DNA from: a virus
DNA: 45,765 nt
IMG/VR virus record: IMGVR_UViG_3300005435_000009
Coordinates: 1-45,765 of that record
Direction: 5' to 3' (one strand)
A model generated the notes under the pieces. The model saw only the letters and a list, made by a program, of their open reading frames with translations. It did no database searches and was not told the DNA's origin. The first letter of the stretch is position 1; every line of letters begins with the position of its first letter. The position numbers and the translations under genes are program-made. This document shows, in pieces, positions 7,653 to 27,982 of this stretch.

Positions 7653-7864
7653 GGCGTCAGGCGGACCGACGGGCCGGTGTCCTGCCGGGCGCAGTCGGTG
7701 CAGCGGACCGGCAGGGAGCTGCGAAAGCGCCGCGGGACGAGGCAGATCCGGCGGCAGTCCTCGCAGGCGCAGGCGATCAGCTCGTCCCCGTGCTCGAAGC
7801 GGTGCGGCTGGGTAAGCGCGACAGCCTGGAGGTAGAACCGGGAAGGCGTGAGGGTCGGGTTCAT
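7649..7864 (-). CDS. Small zinc-ribbon-like protein, 71 aa
   Basis: ATG 7864 overlaps the TGA of the primase-helicase (ATGA). It has the pattern CACEDCRRICLVPRR...VRCTDC, four or more cysteines in two pairs, as in small treble-clef or zinc-ribbon proteins that bind DNA or RNA. It is translationally coupled to the primase-helicase, so a role in replication or regulation near it is plausible. This is an inference from position. Confidence 0.6.
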   Translation of the reverse strand: MNPTLTPSRFYLQAVALTQPHRFEHGDELIACACEDCRRICLVPRRFRSSLPVRCTDCARQDTGPSVRLTP

Positions 7865-10008
7865 GCGCTCGTCTCCTCGTCCTCGTTCCGCTGCGTGCGG
7901 TCGAGGTAGGTGTTGCCGCAGCCACGGCACTTGAGCATTGGCGCGAAGGTCGTCGGGCTCGGCCCGGCGGGCTCCCCGTCGCAACCGCACCTGGGACATT
8001 GGGACACCTGGGACATGGGTACGCCAGACCCCCCCTCCTGGGGTGGTTCTGACGCCCAAAACTGCCGTTGAAACGCTGTCGGAACCCCCCCTCCAGGCGT
8101 CCCAGGTGTCCCAGGCGAGTTCAACGGCGAGGATGGATGTCCCACCCCCCCTGGGACATCACCCACCCCCCCTGGGACATCACCCTGGGACACGTCCCAC
8201 CCCCCAACGGGCTGCCAGCCGGAGTCGTTGATCTTCACGAAGCCGTCCTCGGCCATGCGCCGGAGGAGCTTGCGGACGGCCTCGAATCCGCCCTCCACGG
8301 CCTCAGCGACCCGCCTCGCCGACATCGGCTCGCCGGCCCGGCGCAGGACGGTGAGAATCTGGCGGCGCCGCTCGCTCATCTCCAGCTCGGCCACGTCCCC
8401 CTCGATCAGGTCCCAGCGCATGGTGGCCTCGTCCAGCCTCAGCGCGAGCTTATCCTCGGGGATGTCGCGACCGGACGTGAGCAGTACGCCGTCCGCCTGG
8501 TTGCGAGCGCGGCGCAGCATCAGAATCCCGTCGGCCGCTCCGGTGTAGCCCTGCGTCCCGCTCACGGTGTGAAGCCAGTCGTCGGCGCTGGCCTTGCGGT
8601 CGTGGTGGACGATGATGGTGGCGCAGTCGTGCGCGCGCGCGAGCTTGCTCAGGCCGAAGACCTGGGCGTAGTCGATCGAGTAGGCGTCCCCGGTCCGGTG
8701 CCCGTCCTCAGCCTTGAACGCGACCAGGGTGTCCACGATCAGGAGCCGCACATCCGGGTGGCTCGCAAGCCACTCGTCCAACAGCTCCAGGCCACCCTTC
8801 GCCGCCGGGAGCCAGCTCGTGCTGTAGTAGAGGCCCGGCGGCGGACGCTCGCCGCCCAGCAGCTTCTTCAGGCGGCCGTGCAAGCGTCGGTCCGAGTCCT
8901 CCAGCGCGAGGTACATGACCGAGCACTTGGTCGTGCTGCGGCCGAAGAACGGTTCGCCGGCAGCTATCTGCAAGCCCATGAGCAGCGCGAGGAATGACTT
9001 GCCCAGCTTGGGGCTGCCCACCAGCAGCGTGCAACCCGTCGTCACGAGGTTGTACACGTGCCACCGCAACGCCTCGAACTCGCGGTCGAACAGGGTGTCG
9101 AGCGTGCCGATTCCCCGCAGCAGGTTCTCCCTGATCTCCTCCCGGGACGGCTGGGACGTCCGGGACGGCTGGGGCTCTTGGGACTCCTGGGATGGGTGGG
9201 ACATAAGACATGAATCAGCGAGGGATACGAGTTCAGCGGACGTGTGCTCGGCGTCGAGCCAGTCCGAGACGTCGCCCTTGTCCGGCAGGTCGGGCAGCGC
9301 GAGCACCCGTAGGTCGGCCACGGTGCCCGCCAGCGCCTTCGCGATGGTCTCGGCGTGCTCGCGCCCAGGGTCGTCGTTGTCGGGCAGCAGGACGACTCTG
9401 CGGCCCCGCAGCAGCTCGTTGTACTCGGACCTCCACTTTCCGGCGCCCATCGGCGAGGTGGTGGCCAGCAGGCCCAGGCCCGCGAGACGGTCGGCATCCT
9501 TCTCGCCCTCGACCAGGAACACGGTCTCCTCGGGACGGCTCACGAGGTCGGGCAGGCGGTAGAGGACGCGGCGCGTGTGGTGGAGATTCCAAGCCCAGCG
9601 TCCGCCCGCTCCCGGCCGGCGCTGGTTGAACCTTTTCCCGGCGAAGCGGCAGACCTGGAACAGGAGATTGCCGCTCTCGTCCGTGTAGTCGTAGACCGCC
9701 TCGGGCTCTCCGTTCGGCGGCGGGCTGGACGGCGGCGGGGTGATCGGCGCCGATCCGTTGGGCGGCTGGGGGTCGTCGGGGAACAGCACCGACCAGTTCA
9801 CGCCCCACGCCTTGAGCACGTCGCCGGTCGCGCAGCCGGCGTGGCAGTACAGCGCGAGCTTGCCGTCCTGGCCGATCTTGATGGCCAAGCTGGCCTTGCG
9901 GTCGGCGTGCGCCGGGCAACGGCACTTCCAGTTGGCGCCCTCCTTGACCATCGACTCGGGGCGGGCGGCGAGGACCAGGCGGGCCAGAGCGGCCGGGTAG
10001 CTGCTCAC
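7861..10008 (-). CDS. Bifunctional DNA primase / replicative helicase-type ATPase, 715 aa
   Basis: Start GTG 10008 overlaps the upstream TGA; open frame further upstream is a shadow. Residues ~27-60 form a CHC2-type zinc module (C29, C31, H34, then C55 and C59). Residues ~160-215 are a TOPRIM domain (VEGEKDADRL with Glu167/169, LLPDNDDPG with Asp210/212). A Ser/Gln-rich linker follows (~268-290). Then comes a RecA/RepA-like ATPase with Walker A GSPKLGKS (331-338), Walker B RLLIVDT (Asp426) and a TIIVHHDRK motif. A winged-helix-like segment, a glycine/valine repeat linker and a C-terminal zinc ribbon (CPRCG, CRGCG) end the protein. It would synthesise primers and unwind DNA. It is the central gene of the early operon. 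Confidence 0.9.
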   Translation of the reverse strand: MSSYPAALARLVLAARPESMVKEGANWKCRCPAHADRKASLAIKIGQDGKLALYCHAGCATGDVLKAWGVNWSVLFPDDPQPPNGSAPITPPPSSPPPNGEPEAVYDYTDESGNLLFQVCRFAGKRFNQRRPGAGGRWAWNLHHTRRVLYRLPDLVSRPEETVFLVEGEKDADRLAGLGLLATTSPMGAGKWRSEYNELLRGRRVVLLPDNDDPGREHAETIAKALAGTVADLRVLALPDLPDKGDVSDWLDAEHTSAELVSLADSCLMSHPSQESQEPQPSRTSQPSREEIRENLLRGIGTLDTLFDREFEALRWHVYNLVTTGCTLLVGSPKLGKSFLALLMGLQIAAGEPFFGRSTTKCSVMYLALEDSDRRLHGRLKKLLGGERPPPGLYYSTSWLPAAKGGLELLDEWLASHPDVRLLIVDTLVAFKAEDGHRTGDAYSIDYAQVFGLSKLARAHDCATIIVHHDRKASADDWLHTVSGTQGYTGAADGILMLRRARNQADGVLLTSGRDIPEDKLALRLDEATMRWDLIEGDVAELEMSERRRQILTVLRRAGEPMSARRVAEAVEGGFEAVRKLLRRMAEDGFVKINDSGWQPVGGWDVSQGDVPGGVGDVPGGVGHPSSPLNSPGTPGTPGGGVPTAFQRQFWASEPPQEGGSGVPMSQVSQCPRCGCDGEPAGPSPTTFAPMLKCRGCGNTYLDRTQRNEDEETSA
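8141..8182. repeat. Tandem 21-bp direct repeat inside the primase-helicase gene
   Basis: Two perfect head-to-tail copies of a 21-base unit (8141-8161, 8162-8182), each built of CCCACC, a C run and CTGGGACATCA. Further TGGGACA words lie at 7990-8020 and 8184-8192. In protein it is GDVPGGV twice, a disordered linker. It may be only a coding repeat, or an iteron-like origin element. Confidence 0.7.
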
Positions 10009-10265
10009 TCGTTGCCCTCCAGGTCGAGCGGGCCCGAGAGGTCGCCGTGCGCCGGTGCGTCCGGGTCCATGTCCACGGGCAGCTCGGCGGTCAGCGAGCC
10101 GGACAGCGGCTCGCGCCTGACCAGCGGGATGCGGACGGTGATCGCGAACGCGTACTCCCCGGGCTCCAAGTCCTGAAAGGACGGCTGCCGCTTGCGCAGC
10201 CGGACCCGTCCGTCGCGGTTCGCGAGCAGGTAGGTCGTGACGGTCGTGTACGAGACGGTCCCCAT
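10005..10265 (-). CDS. Hypothetical phage protein, 86 aa
   Basis: ATG 10265 follows GAGGAGCT with a 6-base gap. It starts MGTVSYTTVTTYLLANRDGR, continues with a basic stretch (VRLRKRQPSF) and a beta-rich centre (YAFAITVRIPLVRRE), and has an acidic end DLEGNE. It is soluble, with no cysteines. It sits between the Cas4/RecB-type exonuclease and the primase-helicase and is coupled to the latter by a GTGA overlap. The function is unknown. Confidence 0.6.
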   Translation of the reverse strand: MGTVSYTTVTTYLLANRDGRVRLRKRQPSFQDLEPGEYAFAITVRIPLVRREPLSGSLTAELPVDMDPDAPAHGDLSGPLDLEGNE

Positions 10266-10277
10266 AAGCCAAGCTCC

Positions 10278-11240
10278 TCAGAAGGGCAGGTCGATCAACT
10301 CGAAGAAGGGGCGGCCCCGCGCCGTCTCGTCCTCGCGGCAGCGGGCGACGTACGAGCAGTAGCGGCAGGCCAGGCCGGGCCGAGCTGGGTAGCGGCCCTC
10401 CTGGGCGGTGCGGGCCGCCTCCCCCAGGCGCTCCAGCAGCTCCCTGCCGCCCTCCTCCAGGCTCAGCAGCAGCTCCTTGACCTCGACCTGGGGCTTGCTC
10501 AGGCCGACCCGGTGGTAGGTCACGACCAGGCGCCCCAGGCCGCTCAGCGGCGGCGTCAGCGCCTCGCCGCGGCGCTTCTCCTCGGCCGCCCGGCTGAGCC
10601 AGTAAATGAGGAGCTGGTCCTGCCGCTCGGCGATCCAGTCGGCGTCCCAGGTGCCCGCCTTGTCCCACCGCGGCGAGCCGCTGAACTTGTGGTCCACCAG
10701 GGTGCCGTCGGCGTCCACGCGGTCCGAGTAGCCCACGATCGGCATCTCGTGGCGCTCGTCCAGCCGGAGCACGAACGTGTGCCGGTCCTGGATCAGCGCG
10801 GCCTCGCGCTCGCCCTCGACGTTGAGGAACGCCGCGAAGGCCGAGACCAGGACCCCTACGTACTGAGCGATGCGCTCCTCGACCCACTCGGGTTCGGGCC
10901 GCTCTCGCGCGCCGAGGACGTGCGCGGGGACGTCGCGTAGGGCGTCTTCCAGCATGGTGGTGGCGCGTTCGATTGCAGCGGCGGCGGCGTCCAGGGGACT
11001 GGCAGTCCCCTGGAGCCGTGCGACGAAATAGCGATTGGCGGCCTCGTCAAAGGCGCGGCCGGTCAGCAGCGCGGCCGACGCCTCGTCGGGCAGGCCGAGC
11101 CGGTAGCGGTATCCCCACTTGCGCGGGCAGGCGTAGCGGTACGCCGGGTGCAGCATCGTGAGCTGGGAGTAGCTGAGGTGCTCGGGAAGGTCGTGGACCT
11201 CCACGGCCTTCCCGGCTGACCCCACCGTCACGCGCGCCAT
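10278..11240 (-). CDS. Cas4/RecB-type Fe-S exonuclease (PD-(D/E)XK), 320 aa
   Basis: Start ATG 11240 overlaps the upstream TGA (TGATG). The protein starts with LSYSQLTMLHPAYRYACPRK (Cys38) and ends with CRYCSYVARC (Cys292, 295, 301 region), the four-cysteine pattern of the 4Fe-4S cluster found in Cas4, AddB and related nucleases. Between them VGYSDRVDADGTLVDHKFSG carries the PD-(D/E)xK acidic residues and Lys of the nuclease site. Length suits the PDDEXK_1 family. It probably resects double-stranded ends for recombination, together with the ParB-like and OB-like proteins encoded just upstream. Confidence 0.8.
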   Translation of the reverse strand: MARVTVGSAGKAVEVHDLPEHLSYSQLTMLHPAYRYACPRKWGYRYRLGLPDEASAALLTGRAFDEAANRYFVARLQGTASPLDAAAAAIERATTMLEDALRDVPAHVLGARERPEPEWVEERIAQYVGVLVSAFAAFLNVEGEREAALIQDRHTFVLRLDERHEMPIVGYSDRVDADGTLVDHKFSGSPRWDKAGTWDADWIAERQDQLLIYWLSRAAEEKRRGEALTPPLSGLGRLVVTYHRVGLSKPQVEVKELLLSLEEGGRELLERLGEAARTAQEGRYPARPGLACRYCSYVARCREDETARGRPFFELIDLPF

Positions 11241-20731: not shown

Positions 20732-21013
20732 CTACTGGACGGGGTCCGGGGGTTCGTGCCCCTGGACCCCTGGCCGGCACTCGGCCCAGGGTCGGAGGAG
20801 TTGCAGGCGCTCCGGCTGGACCGGGTGCCTCGTCTCCTCCAGCGCCGCGATCATGCCGGCGATCACGTCCCGTGCCAGCGCGTCGCCGTCCAGGCGGGCA
20901 AGGACCCGAGCCCGCAGGATGGTCAGCCAGCCGAGCGCGACGTCGCCGCGGATGAACAGGCCCGGCCAGTCGTCGCCGAAACGCATCGGTGCGGTCTCAG
21001 GTCTCTCGGTCAT
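20732..21013 (-). CDS. Hypothetical phage protein, 93 aa
   Basis: ATG 21013 overlaps the upstream TGA (ATGA). The protein has MRFGDDWPGLFIRGDVALGW, then a helix (LTILRARVLARLDGDALARD) and VIAGMIAALEETRHPVQPER, ending in a proline-rich tail. It resembles short helical phage proteins without known function. It forms a two-gene leftward unit with the zinc-ribbon gene and converges on the 20402-20722 gene. Confidence 0.6.
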   Translation of the reverse strand: MTERPETAPMRFGDDWPGLFIRGDVALGWLTILRARVLARLDGDALARDVIAGMIAALEETRHPVQPERLQLLRPWAECRPGVQGHEPPDPVQ

Positions 21014-21243
21014 CCGAACAGTGCTCCCTCGGGGTATTCCTCGGTCCAGAACTGTTCCCGGTGCCCGCACTTGGGACAGATCAGCACGATGACCCAGGAC
21101 CCGTCCGAGGTGGATTCGTTGGAGACCTCGATGTTGTCCGCGTCGAGGCCGTCGAACTCGTGGCGGCATTTCGAGCAGACCGTCAGGTGGGCCAACGCCC
21201 TGCCCAAGTCCTCGGGTGACGTGATACGACGCTCTGCTGCCAT
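21010..21243 (-). CDS. Zinc-ribbon protein, 77 aa
   Basis: ATG 21243 follows GGGAGAG. Two CxxC pairs, TVCSKCRHEF and LICPKCGHREQFW, about 38 residues apart, form a typical zinc ribbon with a beta hairpin between (SDGSWVIVLI). It could bind DNA or act as a small adaptor. An earlier in-frame ATG at 21261 is possible. It is coupled to the 20732-21013 gene. Confidence 0.65.
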   Translation of the reverse strand: MAAERRITSPEDLGRALAHLTVCSKCRHEFDGLDADNIEVSNESTSDGSWVIVLICPKCGHREQFWTEEYPEGALFG

Positions 21244-21334
21244 GCCAGCGCTCTCCCACATGCCATGCTCGGGTGACGACCCAAGCTTGGACGTGGGAGT
21301 GTGCGCGAAAGTCGCGCTGTGGTCAAGCTGGTCC

Positions 21335-21340
21335 TAGACT
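21335..21340 (+). promoter_or_regulatory. Candidate -10 box upstream of the HTH gene at 21349
   Basis: TAGACT, 8 bases before the ATG and without a Shine-Dalgarno between, suggests a leaderless or near-leaderless message. The same hexamer precedes the repressor gene at 13903. Confidence 0.4.
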
Positions 21341-21348
21341 GACCATCC

Positions 21349-21642
21349 ATGGTTGCGGAGCGCAGACCGCCGACGCGGGACGACCTGATCTCGGTCGAGC
21401 AGGCCGCTCGCGAGTACCGCATCTCCCGCTCGGCCCTGTTCGACCGCCTCCGGGTGGGCGCGCTGCGGCGTTGGAACGTCCAGGGTGACCGGCGGACCCT
21501 GCTGGACATCCGCGAGCTGGACGAGCTGTTCATGCCTCGCGAGGTGCCGGCGCTGGTGCCGCCGCCGGTGCGCTTGCGCCGGGCCCGTGCCGCCGAGGAG
21601 GCGGCTCGTCAACTCAAGCTGGCTGATCGTCGGGAAAGGTAG
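21349..21642 (+). CDS. Excisionase/MerR-type helix-turn-helix protein, 97 aa
   Basis: The HTH is DDLISVEQAAREYRISRSAL FDRLRVGALRRWNVQGDRR, then LLDIRELDELF, as in DNA-binding excisionase-family proteins, followed by a proline patch and a basic helix (RLRRARAAEEAARQLKLADR). It converges on the large terminase gene with 10 bases between stops. It is a second excisionase candidate besides 13552-13758, but its distance from attP favours a regulatory role. Confidence 0.65.
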   Translation: MVAERRPPTRDDLISVEQAAREYRISRSALFDRLRVGALRRWNVQGDRRTLLDIRELDELFMPREVPALVPPPVRLRRARAAEEAARQLKLADRRER

Positions 21643-21652
21643 CCCAGCGACG

Positions 21653-23767
21653 CTACGCGTAGACGCGCCAGCCGCGCGACTGCTGCGGGTCTCGCGTGAG
21701 CTGGAGTTCGGCGGCGCCGACCACCAGCGCGTCCACCCGGTCGTCAGCCTCGTTGGACTGGCCCATGCCGGTGAACTCGTACATCTGATTCTCCAGGGCC
21801 GGGAACAGGCCCACGTGGTGGAAGCGGCCTTGCTCGTAGAGGCCGACCAGCGGCAGCGCCCGGCCGTACTTGCTCAGCTTCGTGTGGACCCCGCGCACCG
21901 GCACCCGGTCATCCGCGTTGCGGACCTGCTGGATCACCAGCTCGCCCGCGATGTTCGTCTCGGCGACCACGTAGGCCGCCTCGAAGCGGTCGTACGCCCC
22001 GACCGCCTTGGCCGCCCACTGCTGCGGCGTGTAGCGGCCGGAGAGGTCGGCCAGCACGTAGCCGTGGTTGTCGTGCAGCCCACGCCCCACCACGATGATG
22101 CCGGTCAGGTCCGACTCGCGATTACTGGTCCGGGCCGGGTCCAGCGCCACCACGACCTTGAGCAGCTCGGGCGCCTCGGGCACCCGGTAGGGGTCGATCA
22201 TCGGACTCGACCACAGCGCTCCCTCCACGTCGTCCAGCAGCTCGCCCTCCAGCTCCTGGCGGCCCAGCCGCGTGCCCTCGTACTCCTCATAGAGGCGGGC
22301 CCGCACGCCGGGCGCCAGGTGCGGGTTGTCGCGAGTGCTGGCCTTGGTGATCCGGGTCCGGGGGTCGGCGATCAGCTTGCGCAACCGCTCCTTGGGCTTG
22401 GGCGTCGTGGTCACGATCGAGCGCGGATGCGCGCCCAGCCGCAGGCCGAAGCTGGCTTGCGCGTAGGTCTCGTCCAGCTTGGGCCAGGCCGCCAGCTCCT
22501 CCAGCCAGTCCACATGGCTTTGGGCGGCCAGGATGCCCTCGCAGAAAACCTCGTGGCGGCCCTCGACGGTGACGTCAAACAGCTCGGCGCTGGCGATAGG
22601 CGTACACCGCCGTACACGATCGCGAACAAGTCGCGGCGCCAGATCGGGTACGGAACCCGGCGCCACAAACCACGCACTCAGCCTCGACGTATCGCCGGCC
22701 GGTGCCGGTCCGGCGGTAGTGCCGGTCAGCGCAGGCAGGGGAGCAGAAGCGGGGCCGCGCTGAACCTCGCGAGCGGTAGGCGCTGCCGCACTCCTCGCAG
22801 GTCGCCTCCACGCCCTCGTAGGTGGCCCAGCGAGCCCGCGAGGCGGCGATGGCGGCATCGGGACGGCGGGCGTGTAGGCGGCGGTGCTCTCCGACCGGCA
22901 GGCACTCCAGATTCGCCAGGCGGTTGTCCCCGCGATCGAAGTTGCGGTGATGGATCTCGTGTCCCGAGGGGATCGGACCGTGGGCTGTCGTCCAGACCGC
23001 TTGATGAAGCAGGCCCCGGCGCGAGTTCGAGTAGTAGCCGGACGCCCGTCGGTACCATCGCACGCCATTCCATTCGATCCGCTCCACGCCCACAGCACGT
23101 CCTCCGTCGTGAGCTGGTCGAGCGCCACGAAGCCGCGCTCGGTCCAGACCTTGTGCTCCGCAGTCGCGCGGAGCCGGCGCCCTCCCGTCGTTTCCAGCTC
23201 CCACACCGTGCCCTGTCCGGTTCGCCCGCTCCAGACCACCGGCCGCAGGCCGTCGCGCGTCCAGACCCGTTCGCCCGCCTCCAGCTCCTCGATGGGCCGC
23301 CAGCCCTGCTCGCCGCGCACGCGCTGGCCGCGAGCGAAGCAGTTGCCGCCGGCCCGCAGCCGCTCCACGTCCTCGGGCGTGAAGGCCCCGTACAGGCGGG
23401 CCCGCGAGCCGTTGGGCCAGAACACCGACGCCTCGTTGATCTTCCACTGGACCTTGGGGTTGATCGCCTTCAGGCCCGAGGCGCCGAGCACGCACTCCCT
23501 GGCGTCGCGGACGGTGGGCGCGATGATGCGGGCCTGCCAGCCCCGGTGCCGGCTCATGAGCTGGTCGATCCAGTACGAGGCCGCCAGCGTCTTGCCGGTG
23601 CCCCGGCCGGCCAGCATCAGCCAGACGTCCCAGCTCGGGTCATCCCAGGAGGGCATGAGCTGGTGGGCCTCCGGCTTGAACCCCGGGCGGGGCACAGGAG
23701 CGTCCCGCAGACGCTCTACGGCGGCATGGAGGCCCAGCGCCCGCAGATCCCCGCCGCCGGCCGCCAC
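21653..23767 (-). CDS. terL: Terminase large subunit, interrupted by an intein (704-aa frame)
   Basis: ATP-driven DNA packaging motor and nuclease. Walker A is AGRGTGKT (residues 53-60). After removal of residues 143-416 the halves join as ERLRAGGN|SHVDWLEELAAW, restoring the Walker B region. The RNase-H-like nuclease part follows, with VVALDPARTSNRESD, VVAETNIAGELV and DDRVDALVVGAAEL giving the acidic residues. The spliced protein would have 430 residues, normal for the family. The frame stays open across the intein, but its middle third is not the intein's own coding frame (see the nested HNH gene). GTG 23767 is 7 bases from the upstream stop; ribosome binding is weak. Confidence 0.9.
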   Translation of the reverse strand: MAAGGGDLRALGLHAAVERLRDAPVPRPGFKPEAHQLMPSWDDPSWDVWLMLAGRGTGKTLAASYWIDQLMSRHRGWQARIIAPTVRDARECVLGASGLKAINPKVQWKINEASVFWPNGSRARLYGAFTPEDVERLRAGGNCFARGQRVRGEQGWRPIEELEAGERVWTRDGLRPVVWSGRTGQGTVWELETTGGRRLRATAEHKVWTERGFVALDQLTTEDVLWAWSGSNGMACDGTDGRPATTRTRAGACFIKRSGRQPTVRSPRDTRSITATSIAGTTAWRIWSACRSESTAAYTPAVPMPPSPPRGLAGPPTRAWRRPARSAAAPTAREVQRGPASAPLPALTGTTAGPAPAGDTSRLSAWFVAPGSVPDLAPRLVRDRVRRCTPIASAELFDVTVEGRHEVFCEGILAAQSHVDWLEELAAWPKLDETYAQASFGLRLGAHPRSIVTTTPKPKERLRKLIADPRTRITKASTRDNPHLAPGVRARLYEEYEGTRLGRQELEGELLDDVEGALWSSPMIDPYRVPEAPELLKVVVALDPARTSNRESDLTGIIVVGRGLHDNHGYVLADLSGRYTPQQWAAKAVGAYDRFEAAYVVAETNIAGELVIQQVRNADDRVPVRGVHTKLSKYGRALPLVGLYEQGRFHHVGLFPALENQMYEFTGMGQSNEADDRVDALVVGAAELQLTRDPQQSRGWRVYA
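22520..23341 (-). other. Intein in the large terminase, inserted at Walker B
   Basis: Starts at Cys143 with CFARGQRVRGEQGWRPIEEL, the N-terminal splicing block, followed by GERVWTRDG and a block-B-like TAEHKVWTERGFVALDQL. The C-terminal blocks are AELFDVTVEGRHEVFCEGIL AAQ, then Ser of the C-extein. The last residue is Gln rather than Asn and the penultimate one is Ala instead of His, both departures from the common HN ending. In frame it spans 274 residues, but residues ~85-250 of it are read in a frame that gives no recognisable domain; the HNH lies in the -1 frame there. Splicing activity is therefore uncertain. Confidence 0.8.
22575..23093 (-). CDS. HNH homing endonuclease nested out of frame in the intein, 172 aa
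   Basis: This frame lies entirely inside the intein, shifted by -1 (or +2) from the terminase frame. It begins with a GTG (23093) preceded by GGAGG and a 7-base gap, so it can be translated on its own. Residues: ERIEWNGVRWYRRASGYYSN, then the HNH motif GHEIHHRNFDRGDNRLANLE CLPVGEHRRLH. Two cysteine knuckles follow (CEECGSAYRSRG...CSPAC and CVVCGAGFRTRSG...CSRSC). It ends in TGA within the intein's C-terminal block. It would cut intein-less terminase genes and promote homing. Whether it arose from two compensating frameshifts in an ordinary intein or as a separate gene is open. Confidence 0.8.
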   Translation of the reverse strand: MGVERIEWNGVRWYRRASGYYSNSRRGLLHQAVWTTAHGPIPSGHEIHHRNFDRGDNRLANLECLPVGEHRRLHARRPDAAIAASRARWATYEGVEATCEECGSAYRSRGSARPRFCSPACADRHYRRTGTGRRYVEAECVVCGAGFRTRSGAATCSRSCTAVYAYRQRRAV

Positions 23768-23774
23768 GAGGCTC

Positions 23775-24200
23775 TCAGGCGGTCGAGGAGCGCACGACGA
23801 GGAGTGCGTCTACGACAACGCGAGGGAAGTCATCGAGCGTGGGGTCGGGCTGGAACAGCCAGAGCGTGACCTGGGCCTGGAGCGCGACCAGGGTGTCGCC
23901 CATCGGCGTCTGCTCGACGGCCTGGATCGCGTTGGCCACCGCCTCGGCGAGCTGGGAGGCCAGCAGCCGGGTCCGGCCGTAGCACTGGAAGGTGACCAGG
24001 GGCTGGTCCAGCGGCGTGTTGCCCAGCAGCGGCGCACCGCCGATCCGCCGGATCGTCAGCCACTGCGCCGGCCGCTCGGCCACGTCCGGCGCCGAGAAGT
24101 AGACGTAGCGGCCGGCCGCGGTCAGGTCGGCGATGCTGGGGACCGTCTTGCACCACGCCTTGATCGGGCCCTCGACCTCGGGGTAGAGCGTGGTGGTCAC
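23775..24200 (-). CDS. Tail terminator / tail completion-like protein, 141 aa
   Basis: GTG 24200 overlaps the upstream TGA. The protein (TTTLYPEVEGPIKAWCKTVP, RYVYFSAPDVAERPAQWLTI, FQCYGRTRLLASQLAEAVAN) resembles the small alpha/beta tail terminator proteins of long-tailed phages, which cap the tail tube at the head side. Its place directly after the HK97 gp10-like gene is canonical. The next gene in this unit is the large terminase, which is not canonical. Confidence 0.65.
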   Translation of the reverse strand: MTTTLYPEVEGPIKAWCKTVPSIADLTAAGRYVYFSAPDVAERPAQWLTIRRIGGAPLLGNTPLDQPLVTFQCYGRTRLLASQLAEAVANAIQAVEQTPMGDTLVALQAQVTLWLFQPDPTLDDFPRVVVDALLVVRSSTA

Positions 24201-24613
24201 CCGGCCCTCCTGCCGACGGCGCCGGTCCGGCTGAAGGTCCGGCCGGCATTGGCGACGGTGGTCAGCGCGCCGCGCAGAAAGCCGCCCACGCGAGGATGGA
24301 GTTCGATGCGGGCCGCGTACACGAGATCGGAGCCGACCAGCCAGATGATCCCGCCCGCCTCCGACTCGCGGACCACCTTCAGGGAGTCGTGGAGCCGGCC
24401 CGAGTAGCGCAGACCCAGCGGCGCGGGGTCCATGCGGCCCACGTAGCGCGAGGTCGGGTCCTCTCGGGGGCAGTGCTCTTGGGCGTAGCGCAGGACGCCG
24501 CCCGCGATCGTGTCCATGCCCACCGCCAGCGGACCGTCCTCGCTCGTGAACAGCGCGGTGGCGGCGGCGCCCAGGACCTCGACTCGCGTGGAGACGACGG
24601 TGAAGCCGGCCAT
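24197..24613 (-). CDS. HK97 gp10-like neck/tail protein, 138 aa
   Basis: ATG 24613 overlaps the upstream TGA (TGATG). It starts MAGFTVVSTRVEVLGAAATA, has TRYVG-like TSRYVGRMDPAPLGLRYSGR LHDSLKVV and VGSDLVYAARIELHPRVGGF, the pattern SGRLxxSL...Y(A)xxxE of the HK97 gp10 family. Such proteins connect head completion to the tail. The C-terminus is basic and Gly-rich. Confidence 0.75.
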   Translation of the reverse strand: MAGFTVVSTRVEVLGAAATALFTSEDGPLAVGMDTIAGGVLRYAQEHCPREDPTSRYVGRMDPAPLGLRYSGRLHDSLKVVRESEAGGIIWLVGSDLVYAARIELHPRVGGFLRGALTTVANAGRTFSRTGAVGRRAG

Positions 24614-27034: not shown

Positions 27035-27982
27035 TCAGCTCTTGAGTGCCGCGAACGGGTAGGGGTGCGCCATGTTCGCCGACCTGCGCTTGACCGGGTT
27101 GCCCACGGTCACGCCCAGCCTCATGGTCATGCGCAGCGCGCGGCTGTCCTGCTGCATGAGGTTGAACAGCACCTTGCCGTTGTCGTCGGTGATGACGCCC
27201 TCGCGGAAGACTTCCCAGGTCACGTCCCGGCGGATGCCCACGATGATGTTGGACATGTCGCCGCCGATCGTGTGCCAGGTGTCATTCCAGGCTCCGTTGT
27301 TGAGGTAGCGGAAGGGCCGCCCGAGCAGGCCCGCCACGCCGCCCACCGTGGGCGCCGGCACGAACAGCGGCCGGCCCAGTGTGTCCACCACGCCCAGCAG
27401 GTCGTACTCGTACAGCGTGTCCGCCATCCAGCTCGTGAAGGGGTGACCGTCCTCGGCCACCTTGCGCATGGTGGCCACGAGGTCCGCCCACACCGAGGCG
27501 GTGGCCGTGACCGTGTTGCCGACCGCATCGCAGACCTGGGCCAGGCCCTGCGCGGGGTCGGTGCCTCCGAGATCCCAGGACAGTGGCTTGCCGACGCCGA
27601 ACAGGACCGCGGCGTCGATCTTGGCGCCCAGCGCCTCGATGATGAGCGGCTGCACGGCGGCCAGGATGTCGGTGTCGATGTCCTCCACGACCGCGTCCGG
27701 GATGGGGACGATGACCGCCAGCTCCTCGACGTTCAGGAACTTGTTCTGCCAGGCCGCCCGGGTGGTCTCCTTGAGGCCCGTGTCGCCGTTGACGAAGTAC
27801 GCCTCGGGCAGCACGGAGAGGACCGGCATCCGGGTCTGCGCCCGAGCCATCGTCACCCGGCGGGGACCAGCTCCGAGCAGCAGCGAAGCCTCGGGCAGGC
27901 CCTGGAGGATGGCGTTGGTGATGACCTGCTCGACAGGCTGCGGGGTGTCACCACGCACGACCTGTGAGGTGTAGTTGGCCAC
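27035..27982 (-). CDS. Major capsid protein, HK97 fold, 315 aa
   Basis: GTG 27982 follows CGGAGGAG with a 4-base gap. Features of the HK97-type capsid: an N-arm (SQVVRGDTPQPVEQVITNAI), MARAQTRMPVLSVLPEAYFV for the E-loop region, AVIVPIPDAVVEDIDTDILA for the spine helix, LGAKIDAAVLFGVGKP, GRPFRYLNNGAWND and a C-terminal beta-rich domain with NIIVGIRRDVTWEVFREGVI and LRMTMRLGVTVGNPVK. There is no long delta domain and no protease gene nearby, so assembly may depend on the separate scaffold-like protein (39550-40071). It heads the leftward head operon. Confidence 0.85.
   Translation of the reverse strand: MANYTSQVVRGDTPQPVEQVITNAILQGLPEASLLLGAGPRRVTMARAQTRMPVLSVLPEAYFVNGDTGLKETTRAAWQNKFLNVEELAVIVPIPDAVVEDIDTDILAAVQPLIIEALGAKIDAAVLFGVGKPLSWDLGGTDPAQGLAQVCDAVGNTVTATASVWADLVATMRKVAEDGHPFTSWMADTLYEYDLLGVVDTLGRPLFVPAPTVGGVAGLLGRPFRYLNNGAWNDTWHTIGGDMSNIIVGIRRDVTWEVFREGVITDDNGKVLFNLMQQDSRALRMTMRLGVTVGNPVKRRSANMAHPYPFAALKS

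Follow-up and report, generated by a model that had tools for sequence, protein, structure and literature searches.

A putative HNH homing endonuclease gene nested out of frame within an intein of a phage large terminase, with relatives in many phages

Inteins that bear an endonuclease, such as PI-SceI and other inteins of the LAGLIDADG or HNH type, carry it as an in-frame domain of the same polypeptide, and in the textbook view this domain and the host protein are expressed together. As in the terminase intein described here, the Hint domain of these inteins is interrupted between its N- and C-terminal blocks, and the insertion lies at conserved active-site motifs of the host protein; their endonuclease is an in-frame domain, whereas here it is a separate overlapping gene. 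In the fractured genes with split inteins reportedly found by Dassa et al. in 2009, an endonuclease gene is interposed between Hint-N and Hint-C. Four loci of the present set (L040, L075, L085, and L007), which have stops between the two halves, resemble that arrangement, whereas in the 78 viral or phage and 18 genome-contig loci discussed below the intein frame is continuous and the intein is unsplit. Freestanding HNH genes beside terL in phages PAE1, SN1, BP10, and FBPa53 belong to the same HNH family, have the two cysteine knuckles, and adjoin terminase genes, but they are not nested, and the same relative frame contains stops.

An out-of-frame HNH has been described in the ShiLan domain and the Pacc40 gp60 insertion of phage DNA methylases, where neither a splicing domain nor a ribosome-binding site was detected (Arsenault, Gosselin and Gogarten 2025, PMC11855218), and a phage announcement cites such a methylase (PMC12613952). 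These insertions share several features with the present locus: they occur in phages, the HNH with its zinc fingers is out of frame (in the third frame), the host frame is open across the insertion, and a GTG start and a stop lie inside it. The ShiLan type has no detectable intein or intron splicing domain, whereas a recognisable Hint domain flanks the HNH here, which sets the present locus apart from that type. The host is the essential TerL instead of a methylase, Shine–Dalgarno (SD) matches are enriched, and about 100 diverse loci have the arrangement. The earlier note on this DNA had regarded a nested out-of-frame intein nuclease as not established. This still holds for inteins, for which no paper on out-of-frame endonucleases was found in the literature searched, but an out-of-frame HNH as such had been published in 2025 for the methylase insertion. 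Inteins of actinobacteriophages with "non-canonical architecture" are the subject of a preprint from that group (10.1101/2025.01.02.630785), which may report such cases. Inteins and out-of-frame HNHs in phage insertions are therefore known kinds, and what may be new, a prior report being possible, is the out-of-frame endonuclease inside a Hint intein.

The DNA analyzed here (the window) is one single virus record of 45,765 bases, IMGVR_UViG_3300005435_000009. It also encodes a major head protein (27035-27982, PHROG 10) and a DNA primase/helicase (7861-10887, PHROG 239), as expected in a tailed phage genome. Table 1 lists the features of the terminase locus. The TerL frame, claimed to stay open for 704 codons, was confirmed at its coordinates to run without a stop, and the Pfam matches to Terminase_6N, Terminase_6C, and Hint_2 are confined to it. 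The insertion is in frame, and the extein is intact once the insert is removed: the joined exteins match intein-less TerLs of Streptomyces phages mu1/6 and OnionKnight and Desulfofustis phage MD02 in one piece (276 bits, versus 209 + 73 bits as two pieces), and the printed alignment with mu1/6 is gapless at GGN/SHVDW. The intein terminus is Ala-Gln followed by Ser417. A C-terminal Gln before Cys, Ser, or Thr is accepted for inteins besides Asn, but both this Gln and a penultimate residue other than His are unusual; 77 of 78 members of the family described below have Asn. Because the end is Ala-Gln instead of the usual His-Asn, the splicing efficiency in the window is uncertain. By every feature that can be tested in the sequence, the insert is an intein, although not a canonical one with an in-frame endonuclease, and splicing itself is predicted. 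A group I intron with a nested HNH was considered and rejected, as there is no Rfam match up to an E value of 1 in the window region 21000-24500 and the frame is open across the insert. No Rfam introns were found near 13 relatives without a Hint match.

Table 1. Features of the terminase locus in the window
Feature	Position	Strand	Evidence and remarks
TerL ORF including the intein	21653..23767	minus	704 aa, GTG start; Pfam Terminase_6N 1.9e-16, Terminase_6C 7.8e-18, Hint_2 9e-8
N-extein, Walker A side of the TerL ATPase	23342..23767	minus	alignment to intein-less TerL of Streptomyces phage mu1/6
Intein, C143 to Q416, 274 aa, +1 residue Ser417	22520..23341	minus	predicted splice junction GGN/SHVDW
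Hint N-terminal part: block A Cys1, block B TAEH	23078..23341	minus	AF2 pLDDT mostly 97-98; TM 0.83 to the Mtu RecA intein splicing domain
Intein-frame spacer (HNH gene read out of frame), predicted disordered linker	22649..23074	minus	AF2 pLDDT about 41-57, residues 90-230
Hint C-terminal part, blocks F and G, end ...GILAAQ / S	22520..22648	minus	AF2 pLDDT 96-98, residues 241-274
Nested HNH homing endonuclease ORF (putative), 172 aa	22575..23093	minus, -1 frame relative to TerL/intein	Pfam HNH_3 8e-15; AF2 mean pLDDT 91
Shine–Dalgarno-like GGAGG	23101..23105	minus	7 nt before the HNH GTG, within the codons of Hint-N 'TTEDV'
HNH_3 core, invariant HH, N, N, H	22881..23009	minus	Pfam and homologue alignment
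First CxxC...CxxxC zinc knuckle	22731..22799	minus	invariant in 25 aligned relatives
Second CxxC...CxxxC knuckle	22614..22676	minus	nearly invariant in relatives
HNH stop TGA	22575..22577	minus	within the intein codons for block F (ELF-DV)

The earlier note had placed the HNH domain and its two cysteine knuckles in a different frame from the intein, between a GTG with GGAGG 7 bases upstream and a TGA inside the C-terminal block of the intein. All of these elements were found as described: HNH_3 is matched solely in the -1 frame, both knuckles are conserved in homologues, and the entire ORF, which starts with the GTG at 23093-23091 (-), lies within the intein. The HNH catalytic motif and the DNA-binding zinc knuckles, with their conserved His, Asn, and Cys, are those expected of an HNH homing endonuclease. 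The GC content at the wobble position follows the intein phase (0.91–0.95), changes to the HNH phase across most of the HNH ORF, and returns to the intein phase downstream; that is, the highest GC is at intein position 3 on either side and at HNH position 3, which is intein position 2, over most of the ORF. Such a switch and return is expected where two genes use different frames of the same DNA. Taken by itself, the stop-free intein frame of the window lacks significance, since the probability of no stop is 0.64 under synonymous codon permutation at 71% GC. No close relatives of the window were found in viral contigs with the HNH protein, the whole TerL, or Hint-N as query.

The predicted structures agree with this division. 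In the AF2 model of the intein frame, residues 1–88 and about 235–274 fold (pLDDT mostly 96–98), and residues 90–230 are disordered. The Hint model matches PDB mini-inteins with TM scores of about 0.8. The HNH frame, modeled from an alignment of 25 relatives (the window and rows from viral contigs), is itself predicted to fold with high confidence. The best match in a fold search with this model is I-HmuI, an HNH endonuclease of a group I intron (PDB 1U3E), a weak structural match (prob 0.91, E 0.05); I-HmuI is intron-encoded, whereas no intron RNA family was found here.

Homologues were sought first by tblastn against phage records. A wider set, obtained by frame-agnostic HNH-alignment searches of viral contigs and including phage records and the window, comprises 120 distinct HNH loci, in 91 of which both Hint halves flank the HNH. 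The HNH is at -1 to both halves with a stop-free intein frame in 78 of these loci and at -1 with intein-frame stops in four; two loci are +1 with an open frame, three are +1 with stops, and the Hint halves are in differing frames in the remaining four. A scan of genome contigs gave 18 open -1 loci and one open +1 locus among 28 with both Hint halves, filed under Frankia, Nitrospiraceae, Prevotella, candidate phyla, and archaea; many of these contigs are metagenome bins, and the host names are loose. In total, 96 loci are open at -1 (78 viral or phage loci including the window, and 18 from genome contigs) and three are open at +1. In none of the 91 viral or phage loci and none of the 28 genome-contig loci is the HNH in frame with both Hint halves, as the endonuclease of a canonical intein would be with its splicing domain. 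The earlier note had proposed to look in related terminase inteins for the frame of the HNH, and had named homologues with the same HNH in frame as evidence that would overturn its reading; no such homologue was found among these loci.

The terL gene of Tetrasphaera phage TJE1 contains the same HNH in the -1 frame of an intein that occupies a different TerL site from that in the window. A -1 nested HNH was also found in Acinetobacter phage Highwayman (about 40% GC), Rhodobacteraceae phage MD07, and a human-gut phage contig, and the same arrangement occurs in phages of 31–45% GC, where stops would be frequent. In the public annotation of TJE1 (L002), Highwayman (L009), and MD07 (L012), terL is a single gene and the HNH gene is unlisted, indicating that such endonucleases escape gene callers. 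Among the host ORFs, Pfam Intein_splicing was matched in 48 of 57, and the families matched besides Hint are, with few exceptions, terminase families. Cys1 and the His of block B (TxxH), which mark a Hint domain, are invariant in the 57 host ORFs. The inteins occupy several conserved sites of TerL, among them the Walker B region and the nuclease Asp motifs; their ends are nearly always Asn/Cys or Asn/Ser, so that Ala-Gln/Ser in the window is unusual. The HNH and Hint identities are correlated across members (Mantel r 0.48, 0 of 999 permutations as high), which indicates that both parts tend to travel together.

The +1-phase loci with an open intein frame (L093:2125-3003, L167:2173-3051, and L184:2302-3048) suggest a separate origin of the nesting. 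The DNA of L093 and L167 is AT-rich (39–42% GC), and because the +1 frame is open at this composition, the nesting of an HNH in an intein probably arose more than once. The HNH tree has many open forks, with the window on a long branch and the nested, freestanding, and split states interspersed, and does not fix how many origins there were. In ten loci (L040, L075, L085, L063, L007, L006, L179, L185, L191, and L192), stops separate Hint-N from Hint-C with the HNH bridging them; these appear to be split-intein or decaying versions of the same locus. In a further group (L014:1670-2687, L031, L069, L149, L174, and L176), the Hint halves differ in frame or Hint-N stops just before the HNH; Lactobacillus phage CL2 contributes one of the loci of this kind.

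Over the overlap, the 78 loci have zero intein-frame stops, compared with about 1.9 expected per locus under synonymous codon permutation, and the third frame contains 1254 stops. Since the 78 loci were chosen for having zero stops, the count free of this choice is 78 out of all 82 viral loci in which the HNH is at -1 to both Hint halves. The loci are related by descent, so the probability summed over them (log10 about -98) is approximate. The same relative frame contains about 7 stops in each of 20 relatives without a Hint match, one of which has none. A Met followed by a residue with only A-initial codons in the HNH would force a TGA in the intein frame. None of the 132 Met residues in nested HNHs precedes such a residue, compared with 22 of 57 in relatives without Hint; therefore, the constraint against stops reaches the protein sequence of the HNH. 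The comparison of changes in both frames that the earlier note had suggested was made with close pairs of members other than the window. In the overlap, the differences by HNH codon position are 26/11/61 for L112/L159 and 42/27/90 for L054/L062, most of them at position 3, which is intein position 2. In Hint-N of the same pairs, they are 10/5/36 and 18/15/46, most at intein position 3. These patterns indicate purifying selection on the HNH and on the Hint halves. The constraint in the overlap tracks the HNH frame, and the flanking constraint on both sides tracks the intein frame. For the HNH gene read in the intein frame, avoiding stops appears to be almost the only constraint.

A start codon (ATG, GTG, or TTG) in the HNH frame is present near the end of Hint-N in all 78 viral loci. 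An SD match of at least 4 nt lies upstream of the HNH start in 63% of the homologues versus 25% of control starts; the chosen start has no SD match or a 3-nt match only in 29 of the 78. In many loci, an HNH-frame stop lies just 3–12 nt upstream of the start, whereas the HNH frame of the window is open for 546 nt upstream. Slippery X_XXY_YYZ heptamers positioned so that a -1 shift could fuse Hint-N with the HNH are present in 3 of 78 loci. The HNH stops within the intein in 78 of 78, and in 47 of them at two conserved positions of block F, the Asn/Asp of V-Y-N/D and the Glu/Asp of V-E/D. From these starts, SD matches, near-upstream stops, scarce heptamers, and stops inside the intein, we infer that the HNH is independently initiated at an internal start.

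Here, we propose that the window terL contains a mini-intein with a complete nested HNH gene, in the -1 frame and with its own SD, start, and stop, and that the intein splices while the HNH homes; we put the probability of this reading at about 0.88. Ribosomes from the TerL start would translate the full 704-codon frame. The Hint domain would then fold from both ends, the roughly 140 aa read out of frame from the HNH gene would serve as a disordered linker in which no stop can be allowed, and the intein would excise itself to leave TerL. Initiation at the internal GTG would yield the HNH enzyme; its presumed targets are terL alleles without the intein, and their cleavage would allow the intein-plus-HNH cassette to be copied in. 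Homing is suggested by the HNH family, the placement of the gene, and the existence of empty sites. Beyond the window, we consider it likely that these loci represent a widespread, undescribed class of inteins, in which selection maintains an independently translated out-of-frame endonuclease in the terminases of phages with many different hosts, and which evolved in more than one phase.

An independently translated HNH had been weighed in the earlier note against two frameshift alternatives, and the recurrence, the constraint on both frames, and the separate starts and stops favor it over both. The window is a single record, and one -1 plus one +1 change would join its frames, as if an ordinary in-frame HNH intein had been broken by two compensating indels through sequencing error or decay. 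Such accidents cannot recur in about 100 records including named phages, nor do they agree with the lack of any relative in frame with both Hint halves and with the maintenance of both frames, and this explanation is very improbable. Programmed frameshifting in and out of the HNH frame, which would yield a Hint-HNH-Hint fusion and thus a conventional intein via recoding, is somewhat less so but still far from probable. It would account for the nearly constant -1 phase and for the long upstream opening in the window. However, slippery sites are too scarce, stops often block the HNH frame directly before the start, every locus provides a start codon of its own, and three loci are in the +1 phase. 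A second, +1 shift would also be required downstream, yet every HNH has its own stop.

An unlikely alternative, although the least so among these rivals, is that the HNH is expressed from an intein that no longer splices or works only in pieces, the cassette being a selfish insertion tolerated in TerL. The Ala-Gln end in the window is compatible with such a loss, as are the related loci with stops between the Hint halves (L006, L007, L040, L063, L075, and L085, and also genome-contig loci). Against it, the two Hint residues noted above, Cys1 and the block B His, are invariant, Asn-Cys ends prevail in the family, TerL is essential, the Hint codons are under purifying selection, and an open frame would serve no purpose without splicing. 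A chance ORF in G+C-rich DNA would be conceivable from the composition of the window region and its stop probability taken alone, but the strength of the HNH_3 match, the confident fold, and the same arrangement in AT-richer phages leave it next to no credibility.

If the proposed nested, separately started gene is real, the level of the endonuclease could be set independently, with the splicing domain remaining a mini-intein that has a disordered linker; this would explain how the cassette can sit in an essential gene. Gene callers miss these endonucleases, and some apparent mini-inteins may be active homing elements. The loci would also make up a large natural collection of gene overlaps: one frame has to preserve a fold, and the other has to do little, within the overlap, beyond avoiding stops.

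Related HNHs also occur near terL outside Hint domains. In Exiguobacterium phage EauM-23 (L011:2246-3200), a Hint-less HNH lies between the TerL body (...NNH) and its tail (CDATRY), at the site occupied by inteins elsewhere; an Rfam intron was not found there. In L037 and L045, freestanding HNH relatives lie directly downstream of an intact terL with an uninterrupted intein site, and these are possible progenitors of the nested form.
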